Source of the DNA: Bolinopsis microptera
Lineage: Eukaryota; Ctenophora; Tentaculata; Lobata; Bolinopsidae
Assembly: GCF_026151205.1 (NCBI RefSeq)
Contig: NC_087077.1
Coordinates: 10,221,983-10,285,982, forward strand
DNA: 64,000 nt
Direction: 5' to 3'
This document shows, piece after piece, positions 22,244-52,631 of this stretch; position 1 is the first letter of the stretch, and each line of letters opens with the position of its first letter. The translations under genes and the position numbers were made by a program. The notes under the pieces were generated by a model. The model saw only the letters and a program-made list of their open reading frames with translations. It made no database searches and was not told the DNA's origin.

Positions 22244-25200
22244 TTATACTGATGAGTCCTCGTGAGAATGGAATTCAATAGTTACGACTTGATCAGTTTT
22301 TGGTGCTGCTTTTTCATCCAGGGCAATGTCTGACGCTCTACCAGAAGGTCCTTCTGAAGGTACGTCTCTATATTCATTTTTAGATGTTTTCACAGATTCA
22401 GCTGATTTTTCATCACATTCTGCTGACCTGAGAGTATGATCTACATCAGCTTCAACCCTGAGAGTATGATCTACATCAGGTACAACACTGAGAGTAAGAT
22501 CTACATCAGGTACAACACTGAGAGTATGATCTACATCAGGTTCAACCCTGAGAGTATGATCTACATCAGGTACAACACTGAGAGTATGATCTACATCAGA
22601 TCCAACACTGAGAGTATGATCTAGATCAGGTACAACACTGAGAGTATGATCTACATCAGGTTCAACACTGAGAGTATGATCTAGATCAGGTACAACACTG
22701 AGAGTAAGATCTACATCAGGTACAACCTTGAGAGTATGATCTACATCAGGTTCAACCCTGAGAGTATGATCTACATCAGGTTCAACACTGAGAGTAAGAT
22801 CTACATCAGGTACAACACTGAGAGTATGATCTACATCAGGTACAACACTGAGAGTATGATCTACATCAGGTTCACCACTGAGAGTAAGATCTACTTCAGG
22901 TTCAACACTGAGAGTATGATCTACATCAGGTTCAACACTGAGAGTAAGATATACTTCAGGTACAACCTTGAGAGTATGATCTACATCAGGTTCAACACTG
23001 AGAGTATGATCTACATCAGGTTCAACCCTGAGAGTATGATCTACATCAGGTTCAACCCTGAGAGTATGATCTACTTCAGGTACAACACTGAGAATATGAT
23101 CTACATCAGGTACAACACTGAGAGTATGATCTACATCAGGTTCAACCCTGAGAGTATGATCTACATCAGGTTCAACACTGAGAGTATGATCTACATCAGA
23201 TTCACCACTGAGAGTAAGATCTACTTCAGGTTCAACCTTGAGAGTATGATCTACATCAGGTACAACACTGAGAATATGATCTAGATCAGGTACAACACTG
23301 AGAGTATGATCTAGATCAGGTTCAACCCTGAGAGTATGATCTACATCAGGTCCTGTGCCACTTCCTTGAGCTGCCATTTCGATTACTTCTATTTCTGGTC
23401 GTGTAGGACGTCTAATATTTGCTGTTATTTCTTCAATCGATGTACGAATGCGTTCTCTTGCATTTTGATAAAAGGTTGAGTTGGTGATTCTAGTAGAAAT
23501 GAAATGAAACGGTGTTCTTAGTATGCTTGTCACGATATCGTCATAAAGCAGAGGGTTTATGACAGAATTAATTGGAAGAATTAGCATCGAAAATAGACTG
23601 TACCAGGGAGTGGCGTCGAATAGTTCCAAGAAGTGCAGTGCGCATGTAACTATGAAGGGCACCCAGCAGAAAAAGTCAGTGGTTATTATTATGGTAATCC
23701 TCCTGTTCATTTTTCTGTTTCGTTGAGCAATTCGGTTATCACCTTGTGGATTAGCCACACTATTTGCAGAATTTCTGGAGACCACGGCTATTAAAATGTA
23801 TGATACGGTTATGAAGATGAAGCAGATGAAGTTTAACATGAGTATACTCCAAACAAACAGTTTTTGCGGATCGTCTTTAGTTACGAAGTACTTGAAGAGG
23901 CATACTCCGTCATTTCCGTAGAAATCACGCTTATTGACGGTCTTACTGTGATCTTCATATTCAAAATCATGGGAGTACATGTTTCTGACCATTTCAAGAA
24001 TCTTTTCCCAGCTTAAGTTTGTTGCTTTCATTCGTCCGTAATAAGCCTCAAGGACTGGGATGATTTTTTGTTTGTCTGCAGTTCCGATGAAAAATCGCAG
24101 TTCGTCAGCAAAATTAACTCCATTTACAAAGAAGTCCTCAAAGACACTAATTATGGGTGTTACAGCTACAGCAATAGACACAATAACAATGAAGGACATT
24201 CCGATCATTACTTTTAGATACTTCGCAAGGTTGATTTCTCCTGGGACTCTCAAAGGGCCTCTTATCCCATTCAACCTCACCATGCTCAAACCAGCCATAG
24301 CGAACAAGGATACCTGTGAACCTATAGTGCTAAGAACACCTAACATAGAACATTCAAAGCTTGTTAACCATTTGATTTGCTCACGGCAATAGTCCTTTTT
24401 GAATATTACCATGTCGTATATAATTATAATCAGTAAGTAGCATCCTACCAAGAAGTCTCCAAATGATATAAGAATGATGAATGACTTGTTCACCAACGCA
24501 ACTGAGGTAGAACATCGCTTCAATGTCCCAATGTTCTTTGCCATGATGATAAGGTTTGCTAGTACTGCTAGACCTCCTATAACTAACGTAACCCCTTTGA
24601 TGAACGATGTTTCCAGAATACTTCTTGAACATTGCTCATTGCATTCATCGCTGAGATCCAAACAATCAAATTGTTGGTCACATTTCTTAGTTATAGGGAT
24701 GAGATTGCCAGAGGCATTGCACTGAAAATGATTGGTACATCCTGCCTCATCTGAACCATCCTCACAATTTTTGACTAAATCACACACTTGTGAGTAGTCC
24801 AAGCATGTGATTTTGTCGTCACACACGAAGTAACTATTACTATAAATATTTCCGTGAGACTTGGTTAAGAACACGAGATATTTATTGTTGGCAATAGTTC
24901 CTATCCTTTTGGGAAATTGATCTGGACACACTTCATACCTTGGTAGGTTCCTTAGTGGGCAAGTAGAGTTTTCACATCGATTTGTGCAACTGGTATAGAT
25001 ATAATGTTCTCCGAATAGATAATCACAATCTTTTGTGCCGTTCGGGAGTTGCAATTCTGTTTTTGTTTCAACTCCAAACATATCATGATCGGGAAAAATG
25101 AAATCTTCCACTGTGCAGTTTTCGTTTCTAAGGTTTCTTATGCTTTCGACTCCTTTGACGCAGAATGATAACTGCTTGACAAGGCCATTTTTCGTGCCTA

Positions 25201-26523: not shown

Positions 26524-29500
26524 CTGAAATTAAAAGTATTGAAAATAGAAGAAAATAGTACAAAGCTTATAAGAAATTTGGAGGCATGAATTATAAAGCT
26601 AAACCGAATTATCGATAGTGAAGCGGTAAATTTTGTGAAAAGTCAGGTTAATATATCCCGAGAACGGAAACTAAGCCCACAACCTCTTGATATTCTCTAG
26701 TTAACTATTATCCTATTACTTATTACCGCTTAGCTATCTCAGTCCACTCCATCCCGACAATTATTTAAAGATTTTTACTACAGATACCATGCCGTTAGTG
26801 ACCCTGGTCATTAGGAAAGTTCGCATGAGATGGACCACGTTTTTTCCAATTTAACTTTAGATTCTAAAGTTTAGAAGATTGTCACAGGAAAAACTTTTAA
26901 GATAGGCATATGATATTTCACATGTATAGTTCAACTTATTATTACCATATTATTGAGTTTCGATTAATAAAATTTTTGAAAGCTAACGAGTCATTTTACA
27001 TTTTGTTTTCTAATGACAGCTTCCAAGCATGCAATAAAAGTTTAAACGTGTTTAAATTTAATCGATTCATCAAATCTCACTTTTTCAGAATCCGAAGAGA
27101 AGAGGGACATTTTTCGCTAATTGAGTTCAAAATGAGGCTAACTTGCTGACATTCTATGAAACATGCTTTTTAGATTGGTATCTGGTCAACCATATTTTAA
27201 CACTACATTTACTCGATGGTTTGATCTGTTAGCCCCAATTTCGCCTCCCGTAGAAAGGGTAGCCTCGATCAAACCACACATAAATTATGATAAATTCTCA
27301 ATAACCTTCGGGCTGCAATAACAAGTTTTTTAGTGGGTTTATAAACTGTTTCCGTACATTAAAGTTATGACAATGCAGTCGAATTCTTTATTAGCCTCAT
27401 TTTGGCCTCCTATAACAAGTACTAGTAGTCTCGGCGATTTCTGAAATGTTGAGCTTGAAGAGGATGAATCAATCTTTATTGTTGACACATTACCTATATA
27501 CCTTATCGGACCTCATTTGGACGGACATTAAATGAACGGACATTATTATGAACGGACATTAATATGAACGTTAGAAGGCATTCAAAACCATCAAAAATCC
27601 GAATTTTTAAAGTTTTTTTAACGTTGTTTTATTTCAGCAAATGATTTTTTAATCCATTTTTTATACAATAAGTAAGAAAATTAGTCGTTTAGCAGTAAAA
27701 ATGTTAAAATTTGTGTACATGATCAGTGTCTAATATCGCATCTCATCTTCATGATCATCAAATGTGTTTTCATGCATGAAATAGTGTATGCTTAAAGTTA
27801 AAGCATCAGTGATTTCTAGCTTTATGGAAACCTTTTTTTATCAAACTACCCCGGTCCTGCATTTCAGTTTTAACTTTTACAAGCCATTCATTTTACCCTC
27901 TCAAAAGGTGGCTACCCTCTTTTTCACCTCGAATATTTGAAGCTTAGATATCGTTTAAGTATAATCCAAAGGAATTTCATGTGCAACATGGATATCAAGT
28001 AACTTGTGAGTTGTTGACCTATTTTCGTACATTAAAGTTAAAATGTGGTCGAATTCTTTATTAGCCTTATTTTGGCCTTCTTCAATATAGACTCGACGAT
28101 TTCTGAAATAATGAGCTTGAAGAGGATGAATCAATCTTCATTGTTGATACATTCGATAGTCACAATACCGAACCTGCTCGAAAATATACCTTAGGGGACC
28201 TTATTTGGACGGACATTACTTGAACGCTGGAGGCCCTAGCGTTCACGTTAATGTCCGTTCAAATAAAGTCCGTTCAATTAATGTCCGTCCAAGTTAAAGT
28301 CCGTTGAATTTTGTTTCAAAAATTTTTCCATTTCGAACTTTTTGTCCAGAATATGACAACTTTTTAATTTTAGTCAATTTCAATTGCTATCATTAGACTA
28401 AACTAAATTAGGTAGAATGTAGGAGTGACGAACCACATACAGCTATGGCTGGAGAGTCTACGCCCAAAATCAAGATGGGATCAACACTGTGTGCTGTGCT
28501 ATTTGTTTTCGCTGTTTGTTCTTGGAATGTTAGGGGCTTGGGTAGTCCAGACACTGCAGTTAATGATAAAATTCAGTCTGGACGACTTTTGAAGAGGGAG
28601 TGACTGGGTAATGACTGCAAAAGGTACGGTATGGACATTGTGGGACTACAAGAAACTAAGTGCACTAATCAGGTGGATAACATACTTCACAACAACTACA
28701 GACTGTTAATTTTTGATCAGAAAGAACAATGTCATGGGGGTATTGGATTTGTTATTAGCCCTAAACTGCAACCTTTCATCACAACTTTCAAACAGATCTC
28801 TGATAGAGTTGGGTATATTTATTTTTGTTTTCCTCTCAAGTGTGGTAGCAATAAGAATTTCAGAATCATCAACAGTTATGGTCTCACATCTCTTCGTGCT
28901 CAACAACACCCTGACAAACTGTCTCAGTTTTATAGAGAGTTACACAATGTATCCTCTACTCCATCAAAATGGAAAATGTTCCACTGCGGCGATTTCAACT
29001 CAAAGCTGGGTAAACGAACTAGGGTTGATGAACAATTAGGTCTGGAAGGTTTGATAGGTAGACATGGTATTGGGACTAGAAATGAAAATGGGGGGCATTT
29101 GCTTGAATTCATGGTTAAAGAAGACCTAACAGCATGCAATGCTTTGTTTGATCATCCAAGTAGGCACAAACTAACTTGGACTGGTGAACACAGGACTAAG
29201 AGAAATACTCCTATATACGCTCAACTTGACTATGTGCTTTGTAGGAGGAGGTCTACGGTTTTAATAAAGGACAGCAGATCATACGGAGGCGCTGAGTTAC
29301 GATCTGATCACAAACCTGTTGTAACTCGATTAACGCTGAAAAATCATGTTCTCATTCACAAAACCAAAAAATCAGATAGCACTCAGTTTGACTGTTCAAC
29401 TCTCTACAGGAATAAAGAACTCAGAGGGAAATATCAAAGTGTGATTGCTGAAAGGTTATCGGGTAAAACTTATCCAGATGACCCAAATGAGAAAATGAAT

Positions 29501-32500
29501 GAACTTTTTAGTGACATACGTGCGTGTGCTGAAGAAACTATACCACTGAAAGGAAAATCCTCAAAAAAAATTTTTTCAGTGATCTAACAGTAGCCTCATT
29601 AGTTGCTAAAAAGCGTGATCGGACTCTGAATATAAAATCAGCCCCAAGTGGTAGTGATGTTAGTGGAGATAGGAGAGAAGTTAGAAAGATTCAGAATAGC
29701 ATTTCTAAGAGACTTGTGCAAATAAATAACATGAAGGCTGACGGTCTAGCAGAAGAAATAAATAACACTGAAGATGCTAGAAAGATGTTTGAAGCTTCAA
29801 GATCTTTAGCTGGAATGAAAAATTCGGGTAACATAGTGGTCAATGATATCAACAACAACCCTATTGGTACTGATTTAGGGAAAGCAAACACAGCGAAATC
29901 TTTCTTTGAAAAGCAACTAACAGAAGGAGTTGAAGCTGGCCTGCAACCTTTTACCTGCGATCCAAAACCACTTGATAACCCCATTACACCAGTTGAAGTT
30001 AAACTTGCTGCAAGTAAACTCAAATCAAACCGTGCCAGTGGTCCCGATAATCTCCAGAATGAGTTGATAAAGTACGCCCATCCAATCACTTTTGAGAAGT
30101 ATGCTGAGGCAATTAACGATTCATTTAGTGAGAACAAATACATAAGTTCGATAGGACAAGGTATTGTGACTCCTCTACAGAAGCCCGGTAAACCTGAAGG
30201 TCCCCTCACAAGCCTTAGACCACTTACATTGTTAAACGGATCGAGGAAGATGCTCACTCAAATTGCCTTAAAACGGGTTGAGAGTAGAATTGACAACTAC
30301 ACCATGCCATGGCAGAGTGCTTCCTACCTCTTAAGAGAGGTAGGAGCTGCTCTGACATTGTGTGGGCTCAGAGAATGCTCATATCTGTTGTGATGAGGAA
30401 GAAATGGACATTTAGCAAAATGGGTATTGATATGAGAAGAGCTTTTGATACCGTGAAACGGGACACTATTATCAATGTTTTGAAAGATGCTGGTTGTTCG
30501 GAGGACGACATTCGCTTAGTTCAATACCTTCTATCGAATACTCTCCTTAGTTCGTGTTAACTCCTCACTGTCGGAAGAGTTTGAAAGTTTACTCGGAGCA
30601 TTTCAAGGTGACAGTTTATCTGGAAAGCTATTCACACCTATTCTTGCAGCAGCCTTACACCACCTCAGAGCTGTATCTGGGAGACCAAACCCACCAGTAT
30701 CAGAACTAGGTTTTCCAACTGAGTGGGAATATTCAGACGATTGTGACTTTGCTGACGAGGACATCAAGAAACTGAGAATTTTCCTTCCTGCAGTGAAGGA
30801 GATTCTCAAAGACTGGAACCTCCAAGTAAATGAAAGTAAAACTGAATTCAGTACCTTCTACCTGGCGAAAAATCAGATAAAGACACAAACGGTCAGCCAT
30901 TAGCTAATAACGAACCATGGCGAAGTAACAAGTCACTAGGTTCCTTACTGTGTACTGAGAAGGACATTCAAAGAAGGAGAATCCTAGCTGAGATTGCTTT
31001 TAAGAACTTTGAAAAAGTATGGTTGTCCGGTAAGAAAATCTCCCTTGAAAGAAAGCTGAGGTTATATGATGCTCAAGTTGTATCTGTATTGATTTACAAC
31101 TCAAATAGTTGGAGTCCTAAGAAAGCAACCATGGAGAAAATGGACACACTCAATCGTAGACACCTCAGGTCCATTTTAAACATCAAATGGCCTAAAGGTA
31201 TGATAAGCAACAAAGCATTGTATGAAAGGTGCAAAGTTGAAAAGTTATCCAAGCGTATCGAACACCAGCGGTGGAAGATGTTTGGACACATTCTCAGGAG
31301 TATGGAGAACACCCCAGCCCAAACGGCTCTCTCTTTTGCTATTGAATCAGATAATTTATTCATTGGAAGATTGGGGAGACCTAGAATGAACTTGTTATCC
31401 GGTTTAAGAAGTGATTTAAGTTGTAGAAATTTGCAAATGGACAACTTGCATGAATTGAACGAAATTAGAGATATAGCTGCATGCAACAGATGTTGGGAAA
31501 ATCTTTTTCAAGGGTACAGTTTACCGCATTAAGGTATTTTGAAGAATAATTTTTGTCGGTAAGATCCTGTTTTATAATAATAATAATAAGGCCCCCGCTC
31601 AGAACACCAGAGCTAGTGAGTAGTGGGTCCGAGGCTGATACTCGTGGTCAGCACCCCCGGGGTCGGTAACGGCAGCAGTCCATTGGATGGCTGCCGGCTA
31701 GAGCTACTCACTCCCTGGCATTGCCAGATGTCTTCTTCCTGAGGTTCAGTTATAGCACAAAGTTTAAACTATTAACACTGTTAGTTCCCCCGTTACTAGT
31801 CCAAGTAACGGGCTAGAACTTGACCAAACAGCTGGTGAAACACCTGTAGACCACCAGAACCTCAGGCTCTATTGTCCTTCTCAACATCATTTAATGTTAT
31901 CGTGAGATTTTGTAATTGCTTAAAATTCATGTTTAGGAAGGAACAAAAAAAAAGAAAGAAAATTACAAAAAAAAGTTAAAAACAAAAAAGACAAAAAAAA
32001 GACAAAAAAAAGCACAAAATGGAAAAACCAAGAAAAGTATCTGTGACTGAAACAGCAGTATTTTAAAATTTATCCCCTTATTATATATTTATTCGTTATC
32101 ATAGCAGCATAGACTGTCAGTACTGAAAGATTCTCCATCCTTAGTAAATAATTACTATTTATAGTGTTACCATTTACCATACCCATTGTAATACTGATAT
32201 CTGGATATTATCCGGTTGGAAGAGACAAGGACAAGTGAAACAAGGAAGTTAGGAGTAAGGGCAAATTTTCGGCGTCAACGCCATCTTCAGGCTAAAATTG
32301 TTATAAATGTTAGTATATAATAAATGCTTCTATACTAGTTAAAATGCTAAATTAAAATTACACACACTGAATACAGGTTACATCAAATGGTATTGTACAT
32401 TACATTGAAAATAGTGATGTACACACGTTTTACACTCTGTCCAAGTACATAATATCTACTGAACAGCAGGGTCGTGTGCTATTTGTTTAAATTTGTCTTT

Positions 32501-35500: not shown

Positions 35501-38500
35501 AGTTGTTTGGAAACAACCAGAGGCAGTTCTACAGAAACCTTCAAACAAACCCTGAAGAACAGGATATCTCCCACCCTGAGGCTGACAAGGATTCTTGTTT
35601 GAAGTTCTGGAAGAACATATGGGAGCAGCCGGTTGAACATAACAGTGATGCTGAATGGTTACCGGATGTCAGAACAGCACTAGCCTCAGCAGATGAACAG
35701 CGACAGTTTGTTATAACTAACACCCTGGTTGCAGATAGAGTGAAGAAAATGACCAATTGGTCCTCTCCTGGTACAGACGGACTGCATGCTTATTGGATAA
35801 AGCACTTTAAAGAACTCCACAATAGGATTGCAGATCAACTTATGAATTGCCTAACCAACGCTGATATCCCTGACTGGATGACATTGGGACGCACGTACCT
35901 GCTCATAAAGGACCACTCCAAAGGACCCATCCCAGGCAATTTCAGACCTATTACATGCTTATCAGCTATGTGGAAACTGTTCACTGGTCTAATCTCAGAT
36001 TCCATATACAACCATTTAGACCAGCAAAAACTCCTCCCCCCTGAGCAGAAAGGGTGCAAGAAGAAGAGCAGAGGATGTAAAGAACAGTTAATGATAGACA
36101 AACTCATTCTGAAGAACTGTAAACGAAGGAAGCGGAACCTGAACATGACGTTTATAGACTACAAGAAGGCGTATGATAGCGTCCCACACTCTTGGATTCT
36201 GTCTTGTTTGACCATGTGTGGTATCTCTTCATCCATCATAGATCTGTTTGAAGCCTCCTTCAAGCAATCGTATGTTAACCTGATGCTTGGTAAAGTTTCC
36301 CTTGGGAGAATTAAAATTAATAGAGGTCTATTCCAAGGAGACTCAGTATCACCTATTCACTTTATCATGAGTCTTATACCCCTGTCCATTCTTTTGAATA
36401 AGCATGACATAGGATACTCTCTGGAGAAGGGAGGTCGACCGAAAGTGTCACATAGGCTATACATGGACGACCTCAAGTTGTATGCCGAGAGTGAAGACGA
36501 AATGCAAACACTGGTTAATACCACAGCAGAGTTCAGCAGTGACATAAAAATGGAATTCGGGCTAGAGAAATGTGCCGTGGTGAAGGTGAAGAAGGGAGCA
36601 AGAGCCGTTTTCGAAGGCATCTCCCTACCCACAGGTGAACATATCCATGAGTTGGAGGACGAGGGCTATAAGTATCTGGGAATACTAGAAGCCAATGATA
36701 TACTGCACAAAGATATGAAAGCACTGGTTACAAAAGAGTATATCAGAAGAGTTAAAAAGGTTTTAAAATCCCAGCTTCATGGCAGGAATAGTATACAAGC
36801 AATTAACACCTGGGCTGTACCTGTGATAAGATATGGAGCTGGAATTCTCTCATGGAATGCTGGAGAGACCAAAGCCTTAGATGTCAAGACCCGGAAACTG
36901 ATGAGGATAAATGGAGCTCACCACCCCCAAGGAGATGTTGATCGGTTATACGTAAGCCGTCAACTGGGTGGCCGTGGGCTACATAGTATAGAGGAAGTCG
37001 TAAAGAGAGAGGAGAATGCACTCACCACTTATGTGGTGAGAAGTAGAGGCCCAGAACTGATTGCTCTGAAGGACTACTTTGTCAAAGACAAGATACTCTT
37101 GGGTGAAGAGATAGAGAAAGATATCGACCGAACACAACGCGAGGAAATCCGCAAGGAGAAGTGGACTGCTAAAGTGATGCACGGACAGTTCCCAAGGCAG
37201 ATGATGGGTATAGCGGACCCGTTAACCTCTTGGAACTGGCTCACTCAACAAGACTTGAAGAAGGAGACAGAAGGATTGTTGATAGCAGCCCAAGATCAAG
37301 CACTTAGGACGAATTATGTGAAGCACAGGATTGACAAAACACCTGGCTCTTCTCCCCTCTGCAGACTCTGCAGAAATCATTACGAGACAATAGACCACAT
37401 ACTGAATGGGTGCCCAAAACTTTCACAGACAGAATATAAGTGTCGGCATGACAAAGTAGCTGCCGCATTGCACTGGAGTCTGTGCAAGGAATACGGCTTC
37501 CCACGCAGTAAAAGGTGGTACGAACACCGGGCAGAGAAGGTGCTGGAGAACGAAAAAGTCAAGATATTGTGGGACTTCCATGTCCAGTCGGACCACGTTA
37601 TCGAACACTGCAGACCGGATCTCCTCCTGGTAGACAAGGTAACCAACGCAGCAACTATCATTGACGTTGCAGTCCCAGGAGATACCCGGATCCTGGATAG
37701 AGAACAAGAAAAGATACTGAAATATCAAGACCTAAAAAGAGAAATTAAGAAGAACTGGAATTTACGAAAGGTCACAATCGTCCCTGTGGTGATAGGCGCA
37801 TTAGGAACTATCACCATTAACTTTCGTAAACACCTCGACGCAGTCCACTGCAATCTGAGCATCTCTAATCTCCAGAAGACAGCTCTGCTTGGATCAGCCA
37901 GAATTCTCAGGATGGTCTTAAACATATGATATTATTGAGAGTATAATACACTGTAGATATTCTATATTTAGTTTATTCTTCACTGGATACTGTAATAAAC
38001 ACTTTTTACCTGGTCCTCTTATATCTCTTCCCTTGCTATGCAAGCCCTGTCTCTTGTTTATACAATTTTTAACCCGTATATTGGGTAGACTGTGTATTTG
38101 TTATGTATTTTATATTAAATACAGTTTTGTGTACAAGTAATTATTGTTATTTACTGGACTAAGGGGTATACATGTGTTGGAGTTTTTCTCTTATTCTTCT
38201 TCTCTTGCTCTGCATGCCCTGATTCTTGTATAAACATGATGTTTGTTTAAATATTGTATATTCTTGTATTGATTGTGGTATTTTGTGGGTCAGATTCAGC
38301 AATACCCAATGGGTACTTGCTGAATCACTGTTTTATACACTCTGTAGCCAGTCCCTGTGTTCCGTCCCTTGCCCTGCAAGCCCTGTTTCTTGATAATACA
38401 GCATTTATTTATCGTGTATTACATTGTAGTATGTAATAAACATTTGTAGTAGCGTAGGATTGTTTTAATTTCTTTTTGCTAGGTTTTAGAATATTTATTT

Positions 38501-41500
38501 GTATAATTTGTGATTGTTTCTCCCGGTTTTCTTCCCTTGCGTAGCAAGCCCTGTCTCTTGTAAAAACAACCTCGAAAGATTTGTAGATACACATAGTCTC
38601 TACACCTTTACCCTCTGGTCCCTAGGGTCAGCTGATCCCGGGCCAGAGGAAAACTACCGACTGCCAAGGTTTGACGCCTAGGCAGTCGAGACCTCTTATT
38701 GAGACCCTTTATAATAATAATAATGATAGGCGCATTAGGAATTATCACCATTAACTTTCGTAAACACCTCGACGCAGTCCACTGCAATCTGAGCATCTCT
38801 AATTTCCAGAAGACAGCTCTGCTTGGATCAGCCAGAATTCTCAGGATGGTCTTAGACATATAATATAATTGAGAGTATAATACACTGTAGATACTCTATA
38901 TTTAGTTTATTCTTCACTGGATACTGTATTAAACACTTTTTACCTGGTCCTCTTATATCTCTTCCCTTGCTATGCAAGCTCTGTCTCTTGTTTATACAAT
39001 TTTTAACTCGTTTATTGGGTAGACTGTGTATTTGTTATGTATTTTATATTATACAATTTTGTGTACAAGTAATTATTGTTATTTGCTGGACTAAGGGGTA
39101 TACATGTGCTGGAGTTTTTCTCTTATTTTTCTTCTCTTGCTCTGCATGCCCTGATTCTTGTATAAACATGATGTTTTTCTTATATTGTATATTCTTGTAT
39201 TGATTGTGGTATTTTGTGGGTCAGATTCAGCAAAACCCAATGGGTACTTGCTGAATCACTGTTTTATACACTCTGTAGCCAGTTCCTGTGTTCCGTCCAT
39301 TGCCCTGCAAGCCCTGTTTCTTGATTATACAGCATTTATTTATCGTGTATTACATTGTAGTATGTAATAAACATTTGTAGTAGTGTAGGATTGTATGAAT
39401 TTCTTTTTGCTAGGTTTTATAATATTTAATTGTATAATTTGTGATTGTTTCTTCCGGTTTTCTTCCCTTGCGTAGCAAGCCCTGTCTCTTGTAAAAACAA
39501 CCTCGAAAGATTTGTAGATACACATAGTCTCTACACCTTTACCCTCTGGTCCCTAGGGTCAGCTGATCCCGGGCCAGAGGAAAACCACCGACTGCCAAGG
39601 TTTGACGCCTAGGCAGTCGAGACCTCTTATTGAGACCCTTTATAATAACTAGCAGGAAACCGTCTTACCCTAAAGTGGTGTCAAGACTCAAGAGACTAAA
39701 ATAATTATTACCTATTTAATTCGCGTTTTTGACACCACTTGGGGGTCCAAATTTTGGGCTCTAAAACTCCTATTTCTTGGCGAATTTTTTATTTTTTCAT
39801 GCTGATTTGAAGGCCATTAAAGCATTTGACCCAGTCAAAAAAGTTTCAGTTGTATATCTTTTACGGTTTTTGCGGAAAGTCGTGTTAAAGTTGATGCCGT
39901 GGTGTCAGTAAAATGGCACGGATAAATAAATATATATATATCGTCTCGCTTTATATATAGTAAGATAATAAGACTAAACTATATCGTTGAATCAATAAAA
40001 ACAAGGTATCATAAAATTTTAACAATCTGAATTGTAAATATCACATTATTGCATGATCACTATCTTGAAGTTGATCTTCGGCTTCTTCTACCTCATTTTG
40101 TCTTACAAGTTACAACTGGTTGTCTGTCCAACTCGTAGTCGTACCGGGCAATGAACGATCCCAACTGCTCTACTAGAGAGATACTTGAATGCCTAAAGTA
40201 CAGATTAAGCTTTATCTCTAGCTCCCCACTTGGTATAGGCGACCTTCGGTGGCTTATGTCAGCTACGATACCTTCTACTATACCACCCATCTCGATAAAG
40301 TAGAAGACAAACCGGGATATCTCCCTGCACGAAAACCCATTTGATGAAGATGATATGTGATATTAGATAATGATCATGTACACATATTTTAACATTTTTA
40401 CTTATTATAGACTGCTTTTCTTGCTTAGTGTATGAAAAATGGATTTAAAAATCATTTGCTAAAATTAAAAAAACGTAAATAAAAAGTTGAAAAAAATTCG
40501 GATTTTTTATTGCCTTCTAGCGTTCATATTAATGTCCGTTCATAATTATGTCCGTTCAAGTAATGTCCGTCCAAATAAGGTCCGATAAGGTATACAAAAG
40601 TATACTTGTTAGCCTCATTTCACCCTCTCAAAAGGTAGTTAGCCTCATTTTCACCTCGAATATTTAAAGCTTAGATCTCGATGATAGATATTTAAAGCTT
40701 AGATCAAATTTATAGAGCTAATAAAAGGGCTCGAAGCATGAATAATGTTTCAAAACCCATTATGTGTGTTTTTTATGGCTTCACGGAAAATAAAATCGTA
40801 ACGATTATTCTTATTAATTTCAGCAATTCAAGCAAATCTGAAGACGTACCTTTACTGTCACAGATGGTTGTATTCTTGTCTGAACTATCTCTACAGTAGG
40901 CATGGTAGGCACATAATTTATTCCTGCCGATACATTGTAGACCGGTCGGACATTTTACTCTGTCTTCTCTACAGGTGTAATCTGTTTGGGCAATAGTTAC
41001 CTGAATAGTGTATAGTGGTACTAATTTAACACTACAAAGGAATAATTGTTCGTGTATCGGCGCTTTATTTGTTAACAGCTGATACTGTTAATAGCAACTG
41101 CCAAACCTTTACAGAAAGCTCCGTTCTCATCTGAACCATCTGAACAGTCTTCTTCACCGTTACACATGTTATACTCGTCGATACATTGTAGACCGCCCGG
41201 ACATTTTACTGTTCCTACTACACAGGTGTAATCTGTTTGGGTAATAGTTATCTGTGTTAAAGTGATACTAATTTAACACTATGAAGGAATTTGTTCGTGT
41301 ATTGGCGCTTTATTTGTTAACAGCTGATACTGTTATTTAATAGCAACTGACAAACCTTTACAGAAAGCTGCGTTCTCATCTGAACCATCTGAACAGTCTT
41401 TTTTACCGTCACACATGTTATACTCGTCGATACATTTTAGACCGCCCGGACATTTTACTTTTCCTCCTCCACATGTGTAATCTGTTTGGGTAATAGTTAT

Positions 41501-44500
41501 CTGTAAAGTGTATAGTGGTACTAATTTAACACTATGAAGGAATTTGTTCGTGTATTGGCGCTTAAATTGTTAACAGCTGATACTGTTATTTAATAGCAAC
41601 TGAAAAACCTTTACAGAAAGCTCCGTTCTCATCTGAACCATCTGAACAGTCTTCTTCACCGTCACACATGTAACTCTCCCAGATACATTGTAGACCAGTC
41701 GGACATTTTTCTTTTCTTCCTCCACAGGTGTAATCTGTTTGGGTAATAGTTATCTGTATAGTGATACTAATTTAACACTATGAAGGAATTTGTTCGTGTA
41801 TTGGCGCTTAAATTGTTAACAGCTGATACTGTTATTTAATAGCAACTGCCAAACCTTTACAGAAAGCTCCGTTCTCATCTGAACCATCTGAACAGTCTTT
41901 TCTACCGTCACATATGTTATACTCCCGGATACATTGCAGACCGGTCGGACATTTTACTCTTCCTACTACACAGGTGTAATCTGTTTGGGTAATAGTTATC
42001 TGTATAGTGGTACTAATTTAATGTTCCGAAAGAATTTGTTCGTGTATTGGCGCTTAAATTGTTAGCAGCTGATACTGTTAATAGCAACTGCCAAACCTTT
42101 ACAGAAAGCTCCGTTCTCATCTGAACCATCTGAACAGTCTTCTTCACCGTCACACATGTTATACTCCAAGATACATTGTAGACCGCCCGTACATTTTACT
42201 CTTCCTCCTCCACAGGTGTAATCTGTTTGGGCAATAGTTACCTGAATAGTGTATAGTGGTACTAATTTAACACTACAAAGGAATAATTGTTCGTGTATCG
42301 GCGCTTTATTTGTTAACAGCTGATACTGTTAATAGCAACTGCCAAACCTTTACAGAAAGCTCCGTTCTCATCTGAACCATCTGAACAGTCTTTTATACCG
42401 TCACACATGTTATACTCGTCGATACATTGTAGACCGCCCGGACATTTTACTGTTCCTCCTACACAGGTGTAATCTGTTTGGGTAATAGTTATCTGTATAA
42501 TAGTTATCTATATACTTATATAGTGGTACTAATTTAACACTATGAAGGAATTTTTTCGTGTATTGGTGCTTAAATTGTTAACAGCTGATACTGTTATTTA
42601 ATAGCAACTGCCAAACCTTTACAGAAAGCTCCGTTCTCATCTGAACCATCTGAACAGTGGTTTCTACCGTCACACATGTAATACTCGCCGATACATTGTA
42701 GACCGGTCGGACATTTTACTTTAACTCCTCTACAGGTGTAATCTGTTTGGGTAATAGTTATCTGTATAGTGGTACTAATTTAACACTATGAAGGAATTTG
42801 TTCGTGTATTGGTGCTTAAATTGTTAGCAGCTGATACTGTTATTTAATAGCAACTGACACACCTTTACAGAAAGCTCCGTTCTCCTCTGAACCATCTGAA
42901 CAGTCTTCTTCACCGTCACACATGTAACTCTCCCAGATACATTGTAGACCAGTCGGACATTTTACTTGTCCTCTTCTACAGGTGTAATCTGTTTGGGTAA
43001 TAGTTGTCTGTATAGTGGTACTAATTTAACACTATGAAGAAAGTTGTTCGTGTATTGGCGCAGCTAATACTGTTAATAACAACTGACAAACCTTTACAGA
43101 AAGCTCTGTTCTCATCTGAACCATCTGAACATTCTTCGTCACCGTCACACATGTTAAACTCGCTGATACATTGTAGACCGCCCGGACATTTCAGTCTTTC
43201 TTCTCCACAGGTGTAATCTGTTTGGGTAATAATTATCTGTATAGTGTATAGTGGAAATAATTTAATACTATGAAGAAAGTTGTTCGTGTAATGGGGCTTA
43301 AATTGTTAACAGCTGATACTGTTATTTAATAACAACTGACAAACCTTTACAGAAAGCTCTGTTCTCATCTGAACCATCTGAACATTCTTCGTCACCGTCA
43401 CACATGTTAAACTCGCTGATACATTGTAGACCGCCCGGACATTTCAGTCTTTCTTCTCCACAGGTGTAATCTGTTTGGGTAATACTTATCTGAATAGTGT
43501 ATAGTAGTACTAATTTGATACTATGAAGAAAGTTGTTCGTGTAATGGGGCTTAAATTGTTAACAGCTGATACTGTCAATAACAACTGATAAAGTTAAACC
43601 TTTACAGAAAGCTCTGTTCTCATCCGAACCATCTGAACAGTGGTTTGTACCGTCACACATGTAATGCTGATCGCTGATACATTGTAATCCACCCGGACAT
43701 TTTGCTTTTCCTCTCATACAGGTGTAGTCTGTTTGGGTTATAGTTATCTGTTTACCCCCAGTTCCATAGCCGGATATTATGCCAAATTATTAGACGGAGG
43801 TCCATTTCCCGTAGATCATCTCCGGAGATGATTATCCGGCTCCGTCTACTGTATTAGACGGAGATGAAGCTCTCCGGGAATTTCTCGGAGATTAATTCCC
43901 GGAGACCAACGCGCGCGGGCGAATTAGCTGTCTTTCCGAAAAGGTATAACAAATTTGGTACTGTGAAATTCTCACAGTCTCTAGAAATCAATGGTACAAA
44001 AAATTTTAAACTCCGAGCAAGTTTATTTTTATCGTGCACCCACTAGTAGATGGTCTCCGGATAAGGTTATGGAACTGCAAACCGGAGAAATATCCGGAGA
44101 AAAATCAGGAGACGATCTCCGTCTAATAATTTGGCATAATATCCGGCTATTGAACTGGGGGGTTATAGTTATCTATATACTTATTACTTATATAGTGCAG
44201 TGGTACTAATTTAACACTATGACCATGAAGGAATTTGTTCGTGTATTGGTGCTTAAATTGTTAACAGCTGATACTGTTAATAGCAACTGACAAACCTTTA
44301 CAGAAAGCTCCGTTCTCATCTGAACCATCTGAACAGTCTCCGTCACCGTTACACATAAAATCCTCCCAGATACATTGTAGACCAGTCGGACATTTTACTT
44401 GTCCTCTTCTACAGGTGTAATCTGTTTGGGTAATAGTTATCTGTATAGTGGTACTAATTTAACATTACGAAGGAATTTGTTCGTGTATTGGTGCTTAAAT

Positions 44501-47210
44501 TGTTAACAGCTGATACTGTTAATAGCAACTGACAAACCTTTACAGAAAGCTCCGTTCTCATCTGAACCATCTGAACAGTCTCCGTCACCGTTACACATAA
44601 AATCCTCCCAGATACATTGTAGACCAGTCGGACATTTTACTTGTCCTCTTCTACAGGTGTAATCTGTTTGGGTAATAGTTATCTGTATAGTGGTACTAAT
44701 TTAACATTACGAAGGAATTTGTTCGTGTATTGGTGCTTAAATTGTTAACAGCTGATGCTGTTACCTTATCAGACTTTATTTGTACGGACATTAATCGGAC
44801 GCTGAATGTCCTAGTGTTTATTTTAATGTCCTTCTAAAATTTTGTCCGTTCACGCGATGTCCGGTCAAATAATTTCCGATAAGGTAACAACAATTAACAA
44901 ATGACAAACCTTTACAGAAAGTTCTGTTCTCATCTGAACCATCTGAACAGTCGTTTCTACCGTCACATATTGAATTATGTTGCTCATCGATACATTGTAG
45001 ACCGCCCGGACATTTTACTCTTCCTGCTCTACAGCCGTAGTCTGTTTGGGTAATAGTTATCTGTTTATAGTTATCTATATACTTATATAGTGGTACTAAT
45101 TTAACACTATGACCATGAAGGAATTTGTTCGTGTATTGGTGCTTAAATTGTTAACAGCTGATACTGTTATTTAACAGCAACTGACAAACCTTTACAGAAA
45201 GCTATGTTCTCATCTGAACCATCTGAACATGAGTCTTCTTCACCGTTACACAAGTTATACCCGTCGATACATTGTAGACCGGTCGGACATTTTACTCTTC
45301 CTCCTCCACAGGTATAATCTGTTTAGGTAATAGTTATCTGTATAATGGTACTAATTTAACACCCATGCTGTTAAATTCGCCAAATTTTTGTCAAAAAGTA
45401 CGGCGCGTATTTAGAGTTTTCAAAAAGTACACGAATAATTCGCCAATTTACAACGTACATTTTTAATTTTTAGGGCTGTTAAATTCGCCAAAAAATGCGC
45501 GAAAAATTCGATAAAAATGCGGCTGTGGGAATAGAACGTGCAGCATTCTTGAGTCTATAATCTAGTTGGATATGTGAATTGTGACGTGTTACTTCAAACA
45601 TGCAGATCTCAAACTTACAAATCTCGGCAAGTAGACTAGACTGTGGAGGAAATTAAGTGATTTCAAGTTTATCGAGAAAAGCTAGTTTACTCCATAACGT
45701 CTTCGGTATATGAGCTAAATTAAACCCCTTAGCGATCTTGGTCAGTACCTACGCTAGTGATCACTAACCAGTAACCACGCACGTGTTGCGGGAAGCACAT
45801 GTTTTGGCAACATTGCACCATACAAAGCCAACTATCATGAACATATTGATGCGGACACGTGATTTCCTCTTCTCGTATTTTTTATATTTTTTTAAATGCG
45901 GCAATTTTCAGAGAAAAATTCGTATGCGAATTAAATTCGAATAATACGTTTAGTGCGAATTTAACAGCATTGTTTAACACTATGACCATGAAAGAATTTG
46001 TTCGTGTATTGGTGCTTAAATTGTTAACAGCTGATACTGTTACTTAATAGCAACTGACAAACCTTTACAGAAAGCTCCGTTCTCATCTGAACCATCTGAA
46101 CAGTCTTTTCTACCGTCACACATGTAATACTCGCTGATACATTGTGGACCACCCAGACATTTTACTGTTCCTCTCATACATGTGTAATCTGTTTGGGTAA
46201 TAGTTATCTGTATAGTGGTACTAATTTAACACTATGAAGGAATTTTTTCGTGTATTGGTGCTTAAATTGTTCACAGCTGATGCTGTTACCTTATCAGACT
46301 TTCTGACTTTATCTGAACGGACATTAATCGGACGCTGAATGTCCAAGCGTTCAATTCCACTTTAATGTCCGTCTAAAATTATGTCCGTTCACGCGATGTC
46401 CGGTCAAATAATTTCCGATAAGGTAACAACAATTATTATTAACAACTGACAAACCTTTACAGAAAGCTCCGTTCTCATCTGAACCATCTGAACAGTCTTT
46501 TATACCGTCACACATGTTAAGGTAATACTCGCTGATACATTGTAGACCACCCGGACATTTTACTCTTCCTACTACACAGGTGTAATCTGATTGGGTAATA
46601 GTTATCTGTATAGTGGTACTAATTTAACACTATGAAGAAATTTGTTCGTGTATTGGTGCTTCAATTATTAACAGCTGATGCTGTTACCTTATCAGACTTT
46701 ATTTGAACGGACATTGATCGGACGCTGAATGTTTTAGCGTTCATTTTAATGTCCGTCTAAAATTATGTCCGTTCACGCAATGTCCGGTCAAATAATTTCC
46801 GATAAGGTACCAACAATTAACAAATGACAAACCTTTACAGAAAGCTCCGTTCTCATCTGAACCATCTGAACAGTCGTTTCTACCGTCACACATGTTAAGG
46901 TAATACTCGCTGATACATTGTAGACCACCCGGACATTTTACGACTCCTACTACACAGGTGTAATCTGTTTGGGTAATAGTTATCTGTATAGTGGTACTAA
47001 TTTAACACTACGAAGGAATTTGTTCGTGTATTGGTGCTTAAATTGTTAACAGCTGATACTGTTATTTAATAGCAACTGCCAAACCTTTACAGAAAGCTCC
47101 GTTCTCATCTGAACCATCTGAACAGTCTTCGTCACCATCACACATGTAACTCTCCCGGATACATTGTAGACTGCCCGGACATTTCACTTTTCCTCTTCTA
47201 CAGGTGTGAT
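22244..47210 (-). CDS. giant LDLa-repeat G protein-coupled receptor (5' end outside or not found)
   Basis: Twenty LDL-receptor class A exons (40850-47210) are followed by one 4280-bp terminal exon (22244-26523). All junctions are phase 1 (exon ends ...TGTAAAG, next starts ATTACACC, making Asp-Tyr), so the frame runs unbroken for about 2276 codons. The terminal exon starts at the acceptor TTTTAATTTCAG before ATTACTG, in the same phase as the LDLa exons. In-frame sequence upstream has no ATG, which argues against a separate start. It encodes about 640 residues of Cys-rich ectodomain with degenerate LDLa modules (e.g. CDLVKNCEDGSDEAGC), then seven hydrophobic helices from about 24,600 to 23,540. 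The transmembrane part looks like a rhodopsin-family LGR/GRL101-type receptor: GDFLVGCYLLI in TM2, SMVR in place of DRY, DFFCWVPF in TM6 and PINSVINPLLY in TM7. A large insert lies between TM4 and TM5. The 430-residue tail holds about 30 decapeptide repeats and ends in SSV, a possible class I PDZ ligand. No leucine-rich repeats were seen. Probably a plasma-membrane receptor; ligand unknown. No signal-peptide exon was found. Confidence 0.85.
22432..23352 (-). repeat. 30-bp coding repeats, about 30 copies, receptor cytoplasmic tail
   Basis: The plus-strand unit is GATCTACATCAGGTACAACA plus CTGAGAGTAT, exactly 30 bp. On the minus strand it encodes decapeptides of the type VEPDVDHTLS. Variation is confined mostly to V/E before P, S/R/K after L, and H/L before T. 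There are no frame-breaking changes in about 30 copies, so the frame has been kept open. Confidence 0.95.
26524..27489. other. receptor intron next to the terminal exon
   Basis: AT-rich intron DNA. A block at about 27320-27500 recurs in direct orientation at about 28010-28215 (shared CGATTTCTGAAAT and GAGCTTGAAGAGGATGAATC). A short inverted pair, TGGTTTGATC/GATCAAACCA, brackets 27217-27283. No gene. Confidence 0.5.
28186..28315. mobile_element. fragment of the GTCCGTTCA repeat family
   Basis: ACCTTATTTGGACGGACATT, a CTAGCGTTCA core, then three further GTCCGT(T/C)CAA motifs. It is related to the MITEs at 44763, 46288 and 46686 but lacks a clean right terminus. Confidence 0.6.
28445..31530 (+). 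pseudogene. degenerate APE-type non-LTR retrotransposon (LINE)
   Basis: The reading frame starts at ATG 28445 and is broken by a TGA at 28601 and at least four frameshifts (near 29570 in an A-run, near 30335, near 30550 and near 30890). The endonuclease/exonuclease/phosphatase domain comes first: SWNVRGLG at about 28520, GLQETK at about 28640, GDFNSKLG at about 28990 and SDHKPV at about 29300. The reverse transcriptase follows: LRPLTLLN at about 30215, DMRRAFDTV at about 30430, FQGDSLSGKLF at about 30600, and YSDD in place of the usual YADD at about 30730. A C-terminal LINE tail (RRHLRSIL) ends at 31530. The element lies antisense to the receptor intron. It is dead as it stands, and I do not assign a clade. 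Confidence 0.88.
31531..32189. other. LINE 3' tail, structured GC-rich segment and A-rich tract
   Basis: A (TAA)n run at about 31574-31590 looks like the LINE tail. A GC-rich stretch with short complementary segments follows (31591-31870), possibly the end of another retroelement. Next is an A-rich tract with AAAAAAAGAC units (31938-32030). No coding frame is visible. Confidence 0.5.
32487..33412 (-). pseudogene. RT C-terminus plus frameshifted GIY-YIG (left arm and centre)
   Basis: A truncated Penelope-like polyprotein. The RT end and linker (33412 down to about 32790) are in one frame. After the YIG motif, five extra bases shift the frame, and the rest of the endonuclease continues in another frame to 32487. 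Confidence 0.82.
33410..33780 (+). pseudogene. GIY-YIG endonuclease fragment (right arm)
   Basis: Open frame from the inversion junction: Cys-rich linker (CKPKCVIYKVTCKLCQ), the YIG motif, the catalytic-type Arg/His region and a conserved C-terminal helix ending HIQRQI. Without the RT it cannot drive transposition. It is a remnant in an intact frame. Confidence 0.82.
34250..34521 (+). promoter_or_regulatory. 5' UTR of the RLE-type LINE
   Basis: GC-richer sequence immediately upstream of the LINE ORF with paired segments (e.g. CCCAGGAGGTAGCTACCTGG). Probably the element's 5' UTR with internal promoter function. This is inferred from position; the precise 5' end was not found. Confidence 0.4.
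34522..37929 (+). CDS. intact RLE-type non-LTR retrotransposon protein (R2/NeSL-like)
   Basis: A single open frame of 1135 residues from ATG 34522; the frame extends 19 codons further upstream without an ATG. Residues of about 45-95 form a Myb-like DNA-binding region (HTWSKEDN ... LRSLWDDAG). A basic coiled segment follows (about 240-330). The reverse transcriptase runs about 400-680, with SPGTDGLHAYWIK, NFRPITCLS, the palm aspartate in FIDYKKAYDSVPHSW, FQGDSVSP and the catalytic YMDD at 647-650. A CCHC knuckle (CRLC-x8-H-x4-C) starts at 947. A restriction-like endonuclease motif follows: RPD at 1031-1033 and IID at 1046-1048. Members of this group encode one protein that binds, nicks and reverse-transcribes its target. 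All motifs are present and there is no break, so the copy may be young or active. It lies antisense within the receptor's large intron. Confidence 0.92.
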   Translation: MNSLSNFSNSPTLPTNGSEQDQQPNIAPPARRERKARTETSTRHTWSKEDNIQLMTLYYQSQPSRSGYRRRLRSLWDDAGLFTCTEQRLADQARSIRNNNLLSDIELLEIRGTLPPSVVEEAPTTTTQALPTVSQAIRTLRDATIPTVAAEELTPTATVPDFDKEAIIERLKTLLEDPSVIETKPLRHVNRKKLMEETSLINSCIAEIPTSSITETNTLLLAGAHLVSERLGEKPANKNAEKRKTPLWKRRIEDKITQVRKDISYLEEKKKGITLKQKILEGLNRRHPLLKKKGISCIIEELKQRLRAKAAKIKRFNKRCERYHQNKLFGNNQRQFYRNLQTNPEEQDISHPEADKDSCLKFWKNIWEQPVEHNSDAEWLPDVRTALASADEQRQFVITNTLVADRVKKMTNWSSPGTDGLHAYWIKHFKELHNRIADQLMNCLTNADIPDWMTLGRTYLLIKDHSKGPIPGNFRPITCLSAMWKLFTGLISDSIYNHLDQQKLLPPEQKGCKKKSRGCKEQLMIDKLILKNCKRRKRNLNMTFIDYKKAYDSVPHSWILSCLTMCGISSSIIDLFEASFKQSYVNLMLGKVSLGRIKINRGLFQGDSVSPIHFIMSLIPLSILLNKHDIGYSLEKGGRPKVSHRLYMDDLKLYAESEDEMQTLVNTTAEFSSDIKMEFGLEKCAVVKVKKGARAVFEGISLPTGEHIHELEDEGYKYLGILEANDILHKDMKALVTKEYIRRVKKVLKSQLHGRNSIQAINTWAVPVIRYGAGILSWNAGETKALDVKTRKLMRINGAHHPQGDVDRLYVSRQLGGRGLHSIEEVVKREENALTTYVVRSRGPELIALKDYFVKDKILLGEEIEKDIDRTQREEIRKEKWTAKVMHGQFPRQMMGIADPLTSWNWLTQQDLKKETEGLLIAAQDQALRTNYVKHRIDKTPGSSPLCRLCRNHYETIDHILNGCPKLSQTEYKCRHDKVAAALHWSLCKEYGFPRSKRWYEHRAEKVLENEKVKILWDFHVQSDHVIEHCRPDLLLVDKVTNAATIIDVAVPGDTRILDREQEKILKYQDLKREIKKNWNLRKVTIVPVVIGALGTITINFRKHLDAVHCNLSISNLQKTALLGSARILRMVLNI
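37930..38724 (+). other. 3' UTR of the RLE-type LINE with four repeated stem-loop units
   Basis: Contains four units of about 168 bp, each beginning with a CCCTTGC..TGCAAGCCCTG-type motif (about 38029, 38201, 38365 and 38533); TTGC/GCAA can form a small hairpin. The end has two stronger stems: CTCTGGTCC.../GGCCAGAG and CGACTGCC/GGCAGTCG (38630-38690). It finishes in TATAATAATAATAAT. Confidence 0.8.
38725..39648 (+). pseudogene. 5'-truncated tandem copy of the RLE-type LINE
   Basis: Starts at GATAGGCGCATTAGG, equivalent to position 37791 of the full copy. It retains the last 45 or so codons, slightly diverged, and the complete 3' UTR with the same four motifs. It follows directly on the (TAA)n tail of the first copy. 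This is either a second 5'-truncated insertion into the tail or a tandem duplication. Confidence 0.92.
39649..40324. other. intron segment with a GGTGTCAA inverted pair
   Basis: AAGTGGTGTCAAGACT at 39682 and TTGACACCACTTGGG at 39731 form a hairpin, and GTGGTGTCA recurs near 39900. A 65-codon minus-strand frame at 40093-40290 has no recognised relatives. Nothing else can be supported. Confidence 0.45.
43755..44162. mobile_element. MITE with long TIRs and TTA target duplication (PIF/Harbinger-like)
   Basis: 408 bp inside an LDLa intron. The left end, CCCCCAGTTCCATAGCCGGA, continuing to TTATTAGACGGAG, is the complement of the right end, CTCCGTCTAATAATTTGG to TTGAACTGGGGGG. The TIRs are about 45 bp. 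TTA flanks both sides (43752-43754 and 44163-44165), matching the 3-bp TWA duplication of PIF/Harbinger elements. It is internally rich in CTCCGGAGA palindromes. No transposase. Confidence 0.85.
44763..44885. mobile_element. 123-bp MITE (ACCTTATCGGA ends)
   Basis: Begins ACCTTATCAGACTTTATTTG, ends TTTCCGATAAGGT, with GTCCGTTCA and CGGACATTAAT motifs inside. Lies in the LDLa intron upstream of the 44910 exon in genomic order. Sister copies sit at the same intron position at 46288 and 46686. Confidence 0.82.
45363..45972. mobile_element. hAT-like MITE with 8-bp target duplication
   Basis: 610 bp flanked by TTTAACAC on both sides (45355-45362 and 45973-45980). The termini are CCATGCTGTTAAATTCGC and the complement of GCGAATTTAACAGCATTG. 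An 8-bp duplication with short TIRs is typical of hAT elements. It interrupts an LDLa intron. No transposase frame. Confidence 0.85.
46288..46424. mobile_element. 137-bp MITE (ACCTTATCGGA ends)
   Basis: Same family, orientation and intron position as the 44763 element, with a small internal insertion (GACTTTCTGACTTTATCTGA). Confidence 0.82.
46686..46808. mobile_element. 123-bp MITE (ACCTTATCGGA ends)
   Basis: Third copy at the equivalent intron position. It differs from the 44763 copy at a few bases by eye. Confidence 0.82.
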
Positions 47211-51900: not shown

Positions 51901-52631
51901 AAGGGCTCTGGTACGTTAGACTTAAAGTTAAATGAAATTACCTGAAGCTGAAGTTGCGTCCGTAAATAAGGCTATTGGTTCAATCGATGTAATGGCCGAG
52001 AAAAGTAGCGATATCAAAATTATGATTTCACTCGGCAATGGCATAACGTAATCGAAGAATTTGTAATCGAAATGAAACCGCTGTAGAAACACAGTAGCGT
52101 TGGCCCTCTAAAAAGTGAGAATGTGCCTAAAACGGTTTATACTTGTGTGTTGTGGTTGTATTGTTTTAATCCCAAAGCTTGTGGAGTGGAGACCGAATGA
52201 CTTGCCGAAGTTGCTGCCTCAAAGAGAAGCAGCTTTCTGCTCATGTTTAAACATGTATATTTAATCGATTATATTGTTTCCAGGGGCCTCAGATCGTTAA
52301 TATTCCGGGCTGCTTGGGGCCAGTTATACTGCATTATTTACACGACCTATCTAAATTAGCATGCGAATATGGTATGATTGGAGAGTCAGAGTCAAAAGAC
52401 AGTTGATTTTGGCGATGTGCACTTCTTGAAATTGGGGGTCGGTTACACTTACATTTTATGAAGACATGATAATGAAGGTTACTTTATACTCGATGTATTT
52501 TGAATACTGATTCCGATACCCGATGACGTAAGTGGTAAGGTAAACTAAACATGCTTCCCTGAATTCGATTGTTAAGGCATAACTATAACTATAAGGGTTG
52601 GGGTAGTTTCCAGGTTATGGTATTGGTAATA

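Follow-up and report, generated by a model that had tools for sequence, protein, structure and literature searches.

The window analysed here, 64,000 nucleotides of the genome of the ctenophore Bolinopsis microptera (contig NC_087077.1, positions 10,221,983 to 10,285,982), probably holds one minus-strand gene for a surface G-protein-coupled receptor (GPCR) with a fast-evolving, multivalent LDLa array for ligand capture, whose modules appear to have been exchanged between loci. We observed the exon anatomy, a frame that is open when spliced in silico, the same gene order in paralogues, a selection signal in the modules, and a DNA similarity between arrays far above that between their receptors. 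In its architecture the receptor is a variant of the GPCRs that carry LDLa modules; what is surprising is the diversification and exchange of its cassettes. The original prediction, made from this sequence, concerned the exon array and its join to the receptor; the large gene family, a signal exon, diversifying selection and cassette exchange between loci are added here.

Exon structure of the predicted receptor gene

A profile built from the modules recovered 20 LDLa modules on the minus strand (47214-40848). As predicted, splice sites give one LDLa per exon in phase 1-1 for all 20 exons, each 126, 129 or 132 bases long and flanked by an AG acceptor (ACAG/A; TCAG/A once) and an AAG/GT donor. 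The Pfam LDLa cut-off was passed by 19 of the 20 modules, the last one (40985-40848) scoring 23.9 bits against a cut-off of 24.1. Exons 7 and 8 are identical in protein sequence, as are exons 10 and 11, and the array is acidic overall (162 D+E versus 89 K+R). The array exons span 47210-40850, upstream of a large exon on the same strand (26523-22244), which begins at 26523 directly after TTTTAATTTCAG. The features of the predicted gene are listed below; LDLa exons 1 to 19 rest on the module profile, splice sites and Pfam.

51942..52044, minus strand, candidate signal-peptide exon with phase-1 donor CAG/GTAATT; the 9 kb upstream of the array hold no other candidate
40733..47231, minus strand, block with DNA-level similarity to the C8 and C10 arrays (DNA comparison)
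47085..47210, minus strand, LDLa exon 1
46833..46964, minus strand, LDLa exon 2
46455..46586, minus strand, LDLa exon 3
46063..46188, minus strand, LDLa exon 4
45190..45318, minus strand, LDLa exon 5
44910..45041, minus strand, LDLa exon 6
44538..44663, minus strand, LDLa exon 7 (same protein as exon 8)
44296..44421, minus strand, LDLa exon 8
43600..43728, minus strand, LDLa exon 9
43345..43470, minus strand, LDLa exon 10 (same protein as exon 11)
43092..43217, minus strand, LDLa exon 11
42863..42988, minus strand, LDLa exon 12
42617..42742, minus strand, LDLa exon 13
42348..42473, minus strand, LDLa exon 14
42097..42222, minus strand, LDLa exon 15
41855..41980, minus strand, LDLa exon 16
41609..41734, minus strand, LDLa exon 17
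41356..41481, minus strand, LDLa exon 18
41107..41232, minus strand, LDLa exon 19
40850..40981, minus strand, LDLa exon 20, membrane-proximal, lacking calcium-site residues, donor AAG/GTACGT (splice sites; Pfam 23.9 bits)
26524..40849, minus strand, last intron of 14.3 kb; the opposite strand carries retroelement-like frames (open reading frames, Pfam, splice sites)
22244..26523, minus strand, large exon: Cys-rich ectodomain with LDLa, class A seven-transmembrane (7TM) domain, repeat tail and stop
23537..24604, minus strand, seven-helix domain, limits approximate (Pfam, solved relatives, motifs)
22428..23351, minus strand, coding 30-base tandem repeat of the C-terminal tail (10 residues, 30.8 copies)

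Joined in silico, the 20 array exons (850 residues) and the large exon (1426 residues) form an open frame of 2276 residues, the in-frame length that had been proposed; adding the candidate signal exon gives 2310 residues with a single stop at the end. When the acceptor of the 7TM exon was moved by 1 or 2 bases, 102 or 160 stops appeared in the spliced frame. The array exons are accordingly modelled here as spliced to the 7TM exon. By their symmetric phase, modules could be skipped without a frameshift. One-repeat-per-exon coding is usual for the LDLa and leucine-rich repeats (LRRs) of such receptors, and skipping is sometimes reported (PMC8286064; this and the papers below are cited from excerpts).

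The signal-exon pattern at 52044-51942 is one of two such patterns on both strands of the window. The second, at 35309, was rejected: it sits in the antisense of a retroelement. The gene had been placed at 47210-22244; the array and large exons do lie within that range, whereas the start probably lies outside it, at 52044.

The large exon gave a clear match to 7tm_1 (49.3 bits versus the Pfam cut-off of 30.5, E 5.9e-13) and one to LDLa (29.2 bits, E 1.1e-6). Its nearest solved 7TM structures are FSHR, TSHR, LHCGR and RXFP1. Class A GPCRs carry CWxP in transmembrane helix TM6, NPxxY in TM7 and E/DRY at the end of TM3. The first two are present in the large exon as FFCWVPF and INPLLYD. The DRY position is altered (VRL in SMVRLNGIRG; the arginine is kept and its neighbours are changed), which counts against the reading preferred here. 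The exon also adds about 640 Cys-rich ectodomain residues, including two LDLa stretches; the ectodomain thus contains the predicted run of 20 modules but does not consist of it alone. The claim that LRRs are absent agrees with our search, as no LRR family was found by Pfam at E 0.01 in the exon's 1440-residue frame. The cytoplasmic tail is encoded by the 30-base minisatellite (30.8 copies). In the paralogue L002 the tail has a different short repeat, GEEPII.

The array and the seven-helix exon: probably one gene

When the genome was searched with two module queries, close relatives of the window modules were found in at least eight places, the window included; 150 of 462 and 150 of 398 candidates were scored, and these counts are lower bounds. 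Each of the seven other closest arrays lies on the same strand as, and upstream of, a 7TM exon of the window receptor's family, at a distance of about 0.1 to 0.7 kb. With all 462 candidates of the 7TM search counted, the chance of finding a family 7TM exon within 15 kb on the right side of a random site is about 0.013. The seven arrays contain 12, 2, 6, 4, 3, 10 and 3 modules (the last with one more that is broken), and in all seven a signal-peptide exon whose donor is in phase 1 lies upstream of the array. The phase and the multiple-of-three length of the paralogue exons were imposed by the search and are not evidence; the exon listing omits the fourth module of L007, which is split.

The donor of the last module, AAG/GTACGT, is common to the window and to the C8 (L001) and C10 (L006) loci. 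Past this donor the DNA is still similar but the frame is not, with 25, 5 and 5 residues to the stop in the window, C8 and C10, respectively. Because the donor is conserved and the read-through frame is not, a splice site is likelier here than a terminal exon after module 20, and we rejected a separate array gene that ends in such an exon. Judged from genomic sequence, the array and the 7TM exon are very probably one gene. This earlier claim is now backed by the pairing of all eight closest arrays with a 7TM exon, by the open spliced frame and by the signal exons of the seven paralogues.

Several observations weigh against this assignment. The join was read from genomic DNA in silico; the window array lies 14.3 kb from its 7TM exon with retroelement-like frames between them, and no homologue of the window signal exon was recognised. 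The seven paralogues form two groups of close relatives and are hence not independent, and the receptor frame is damaged in two of them (one TGA in L006; L007 in pieces). Moreover, the more distant arrays that ranked next, on C13, reached best E values of 5.1e-9 and 1.1e-10 in the two module queries, near the weakest of the eight; none of the three examined there (L020, L021 and L022) had a 7TM-type frame in the 6-8 kb after it, and the limit that places eight arrays within the module family and the C13 arrays outside it is a choice. The C13 arrays are instead followed by an open reading frame with CDCWTPECG(Y/F)CSN, and by a long VDPEPVVP repeat in L021. LDLa arrays therefore belong to other genes too, C13 holding a separate LDLa-array gene type.

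If the window held two genes, the array would code for a secreted LDLa protein by itself, and the first exon belonging to the 7TM exon would lie within the 14.3 kb gap. The gap with its retroelement-like frames and the C13 arrays fit this arrangement, as does the existence of array-less paralogues, in two of eight of which the large exon comes directly after a clear signal exon; the one other signal-like pattern of the window, at 35309, would be a candidate first exon, though in retroelement antisense. We nevertheless consider two genes improbable, given the tight linkage in seven paralogues, the conserved last donor with its unconserved read-through frame, and the fit of the array to the 7TM exon in frame and phase.

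A large receptor family with and without arrays

A 116-residue piece of the window 7TM domain was used to query the genome. It gave 462 candidate places, and all 150 that were scored matched (weakest E 2.6e-30; window and broken copies included), which points to a family of at least 150 7TM loci, broken copies among them. None of eight other 7TM paralogues taken from the best matches has an array within about 6 kb upstream. The receptor type thus occurs without an array in these eight, a further point against the reading preferred here. In two of them, L008 and L011, the large exon follows a clear signal exon with a phase-1 donor, and therefore the array appears to sit in the intron between signal peptide and receptor. 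This intron would have the very phase that symmetric 1-1 exons require. In a tree of 15 receptor open reading frames, from which L007 was omitted for its broken frame, the window receptor clusters with six receptors that lack an array, apart from those of C8 and C10; its branch is long and the tool warns about its placement.

Array DNA is shared between diverged receptors

The introns between modules were compared among arrays, using introns of 60-400 bases (17 of 19 kept in the window, 9 of 11 in L001, 7 of 9 in L006 and none in L002). All 153 pairs of window and C8 introns matched over their full length with a median identity of 81.4%, and all 119 pairs of window and C10 introns matched with a median of 80.8%. 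Within the window array the median identity is 86.8%. In contrast, a comparison of four-fold sites in the 7TM exons shows 118 differences in 174 between the window and C8 (0.68), which is near saturation, and 124 in 173 between C8 and L003 (0.72). The similar block ends at the array limits, 47231 and 40733; beyond them nothing matches except short repeats and the 7TM exon, which is 65% identical. The introns of a second group of arrays (L003, L004, L005 and L007) showed no match to the window introns, and by this comparison we count that group as a separate cassette family.

Because the introns are about 81% identical while the 7TM exons are near synonymous saturation, the cassettes appear to have moved or been converted between genes. 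The simplest account would be that, once the receptors had diverged, cassettes were copied or converted from one receptor gene to another across chromosomes. We rejected the idea that all receptors have carried the same unaltered array from the start: none of the eight other paralogues has an array within about 6 kb upstream, and the introns are far more alike than the receptors.

A dispersed short repeat occurs near the array ends (40514-40593, 28187-28303 and 50853-50923) and also directly before the first module of L002 (2274-2489). It might be a marker of, or an aid to, cassette movement, or an ordinary repeat.

A signal of diversifying selection at a few module positions

The window modules differ less at the third codon position (0.123) than at the other two (0.185 and 0.142). 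Over all codons, nonsynonymous differences (pN 0.138) exceed synonymous ones (pS 0.114). They are concentrated in 12 variable columns (pN 0.419), whereas elsewhere pN is 0.031 and lies below the pS of 0.063. These 12 columns were picked on the window array itself. Site models, which used no chosen columns, gave an omega of 1.50 under M0 and preferred M2a over M1a (2dlnL 40.67), with an omega2 of 5.1 on 27% of codons; none of 60 sets simulated under M1a reached this statistic (largest 4.9). M2a was also preferred in C8 (2dlnL 9.8), C10 (33.6) and the second group (26.6). The last modules (W_20, L001_12 and L006_10) were excluded from the window, C8 and C10 selection sets. For the pN/pS counts only W_20 was excluded from the window set, and L001 module 8, whose 5' part was not recovered, was dropped from the module alignment.

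Several of the sites found recur between arrays. Column 27 came up as selected in each of the four site-model sets, which were analysed separately. The window and the second group also share columns 12, 32, 45 and 57, and column 32 was found in C10 as well. The cysteines are fixed across the window modules. In LDLR repeat 5 the calcium pocket is formed by Asp196, Asp200, Asp206 and Glu207 (PMC6399494); the columns aligned to this pocket by eye, 41, 47, 54 and 55, are acidic in 15, 15, 18 and 19 of 19 window modules, respectively. The data give a signal of diversifying selection at a few module positions of the window array, weaker in the other arrays. As a lead, we take variable columns 37 and 45 to be the tryptophan position and a ligand-contact position beside the calcium pocket, as in LDLR-RAP structures.

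The selection signal might instead reflect gene conversion or recombination among the modules of a neutral repeat or spacer that varies in copy number. Site models assume no recombination between modules and can be inflated by it, and the strong likeness of introns within the array (median 86.8%) fits conversion. Outside the window the evidence also weakens: the null simulations covered the window set, C8, C10 and the second group have M0 omega values below 1 (0.71, 0.96 and 0.80, respectively), and at the columns fixed on the window the excess over introns is weak in C8 (P 0.10 and 0.02) and C10 (P 0.25 and 0.05) and not clear in L003 (P 0.20 and 0.36). In the second group, the selected sites include column 47, which is a calcium-ligand position. 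All these points count against the reading preferred here. On the other hand, positions 1 and 2 of the variable codons differ by 0.436 in the window, about twice the 0.18-0.21 of the flanking introns, no simulated null set reached the observed statistic, and column 27 recurs in all four sets. An artefact of conversion is thus, in our view, unlikely.

Alternatively, the array could be a decaying relic, or could have been inserted recently and without function into an intron of an otherwise ordinary array-less receptor. Against this, all 20 modules are open with splice sites, pN remains below pS outside the variable columns (0.031 versus 0.063), a sign of constraint, and the pattern of selection is unlike neutral decay. 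The calcium-site residues lost in the last module, the grouping of the window receptor with array-less receptors, the long intron with its retroelements and the damage at two related loci would all suit such a relic, which we regard as highly improbable all the same.

Proposed mechanism and comparison with known receptors

In the reading that we prefer, the gene would run from the signal exon through a phase-1 intron, 20 symmetric LDLa exons and the long last intron to the large exon. The product would be a GPCR at the cell surface with an N-terminal string of LDLa modules that are presumably calcium-bound, each module retaining the disulfide scaffold and most of the calcium site. By the LDL-receptor structure, the varying positions would flank the site that grips basic ligand residues. 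The array could thus offer many weak, different calcium-dependent sites on one receptor and capture ligand, and the LGR-like 7TM domain would signal via a G protein. Symmetric exons would let the array grow or shrink by unequal exchange and let modules from paralogous loci enter without breaking the frame, and they may be spliced in variants. Fast change at a few positions together with cassette exchange points to recognition of variable or numerous targets, and we infer a recognition role, chemosensory or immune. The receptor is best read as a member of the LDLa-GPCR group that has diversified for recognition and in which no LRRs were detected.

A far-reaching extension is possible, if doubtful: a ctenophore variable-receptor system in which cassettes move between GPCR genes of different chromosomes, enter the phase-1 intron, expand and contract, diversify at ligand-contact codons and are alternatively spliced, to serve recognition in immunity or of prey or mates.

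The receptor resembles the GRL101/LGR type C2 receptors (Lymnaea, arthropod LGR5, echinoderm, cnidarian) in having a class A 7TM domain, probably of the LGR neighbourhood, and many LDLa modules in the ectodomain. Cnidarian LGRs can carry several LDLa modules (PMC4079206), and a chemosensory role was suggested from expression for starfish GRL101 (PMC6267866). Lymnaea GRL101 has 12 LDLa and 6 LRRs (PMC8286064). The 20 modules of the array, to which the LDLa of the large exon are added, exceed this number, in agreement with the claim that known LDLa-bearing GPCRs carry fewer; no LRR was detected beside them. The window receptor also differs from GRL101 in belonging to a very large family, in the diversification of its modules and in sharing array DNA between loci. 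It is like RXFP1 and RXFP2 (LGR type C1) in placing LDLa N-terminal to a class A 7TM domain, and RXFP1 is among its solved relatives; those receptors have one LDLa joined to an LRR domain (PMC5468325), and the window receptor matches neither feature.

These relatives also suggest a plainer function, namely an ordinary peptide-hormone receptor of the GRL101 or relaxin-receptor kind that binds a single conserved basic ligand, the array doing no more than adjust its affinity. The nearest solved 7TM relatives are glycoprotein-hormone receptors and RXFP1, LDLa ligands typically present basic surfaces (PMC8286064), and the array is acidic (162 D+E versus 89 K+R). Against it stand the very large family, the fast change at module positions, the lack of detected LRRs in the large exon and the eight examined paralogues without an array, and we find this function fairly unlikely.

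Tandem LDLa modules are shared with LDLR, VLDLR and LRP2, and one window module aligns to LRP2 and VLDLR repeats in the PDB. Unlike the window receptor, these proteins have no 7TM domain. The LDL receptor family carries EGF and propeller parts; none were seen in the Pfam scans of the window array modules and the large exon.

The closest mechanism that we found is that of the brown-algal ROCO genes (LRR-ROC-COR). These candidate recognition receptors have one LRR per exon in one phase, exon shuffling, alternative splicing and diversifying selection at a few repeat positions, in their case at predicted ligand-face residues (PMC11378527). The window array has the same one-repeat-per-exon layout in a single phase, and a comparable selection signal. 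The algal genes differ in that their LRRs are carried on GTPases and alternative splicing is reported, whereas here LDLa modules are carried on an animal GPCR and variant splicing would be allowed by exon phase. In work on Mnemiopsis, GPCR clades are reported to have radiated independently in ctenophores, with copy-number change and selection between species; LDLa arrays or exon exchange are not described in the excerpt of that study (PMC13231562). Among the matches listed in the open-licence literature, titles and abstract openings described no such ctenophore GPCRs and no diversifying or shuffled LDLa exons.

The ectodomain of a GPCR is generally regarded as a fixed part, and the module type of the window looks portable and fast-evolving on a G-protein-coupled chassis. 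Its host, a ctenophore, stands near the base of the animal tree, and the family comprises at least 150 loci, broken copies included. The findings suggest a route to varied recognition receptors through twenty fast-changing, exchangeable binding modules. If borne out in transcripts, the gene would be added to the small number of systems where arrays with one repeat per exon give rise to diverse receptors.

Other features of the window

The last intron contains retrotransposon-like sequence on the plus strand, antisense to the gene. At 28604-31532 there is an endonuclease/exonuclease-type domain with further frames in pieces, and at 34429-37929 an open frame of 1166 residues has a reverse transcriptase domain (Pfam E 7.2e-27). 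At 32708-33780 two similar frames, one on each strand and inverted relative to each other, contain TCKLCQELYIG; this is perhaps a GIY-YIG piece of a Penelope-like element.

Elsewhere in the window, a minus-strand frame of 828 residues at 5700-8186 has an N-terminal hydrophobic stretch and long Glu/Thr-rich repeats and matched no Pfam family at E 0.01. A further minus-strand frame of 412 residues (17687-18925) gave weak, sub-threshold matches to acetyltransferases (GNAT). The open frames at 4231-5189 on the plus strand presumably resemble the proteasome subunit PSMD12/Rpn5. Outside the window, LDLa frames of 45 residues spaced about 0.6 kb apart at C10:6204164-6207316 are apparently another single-module array.

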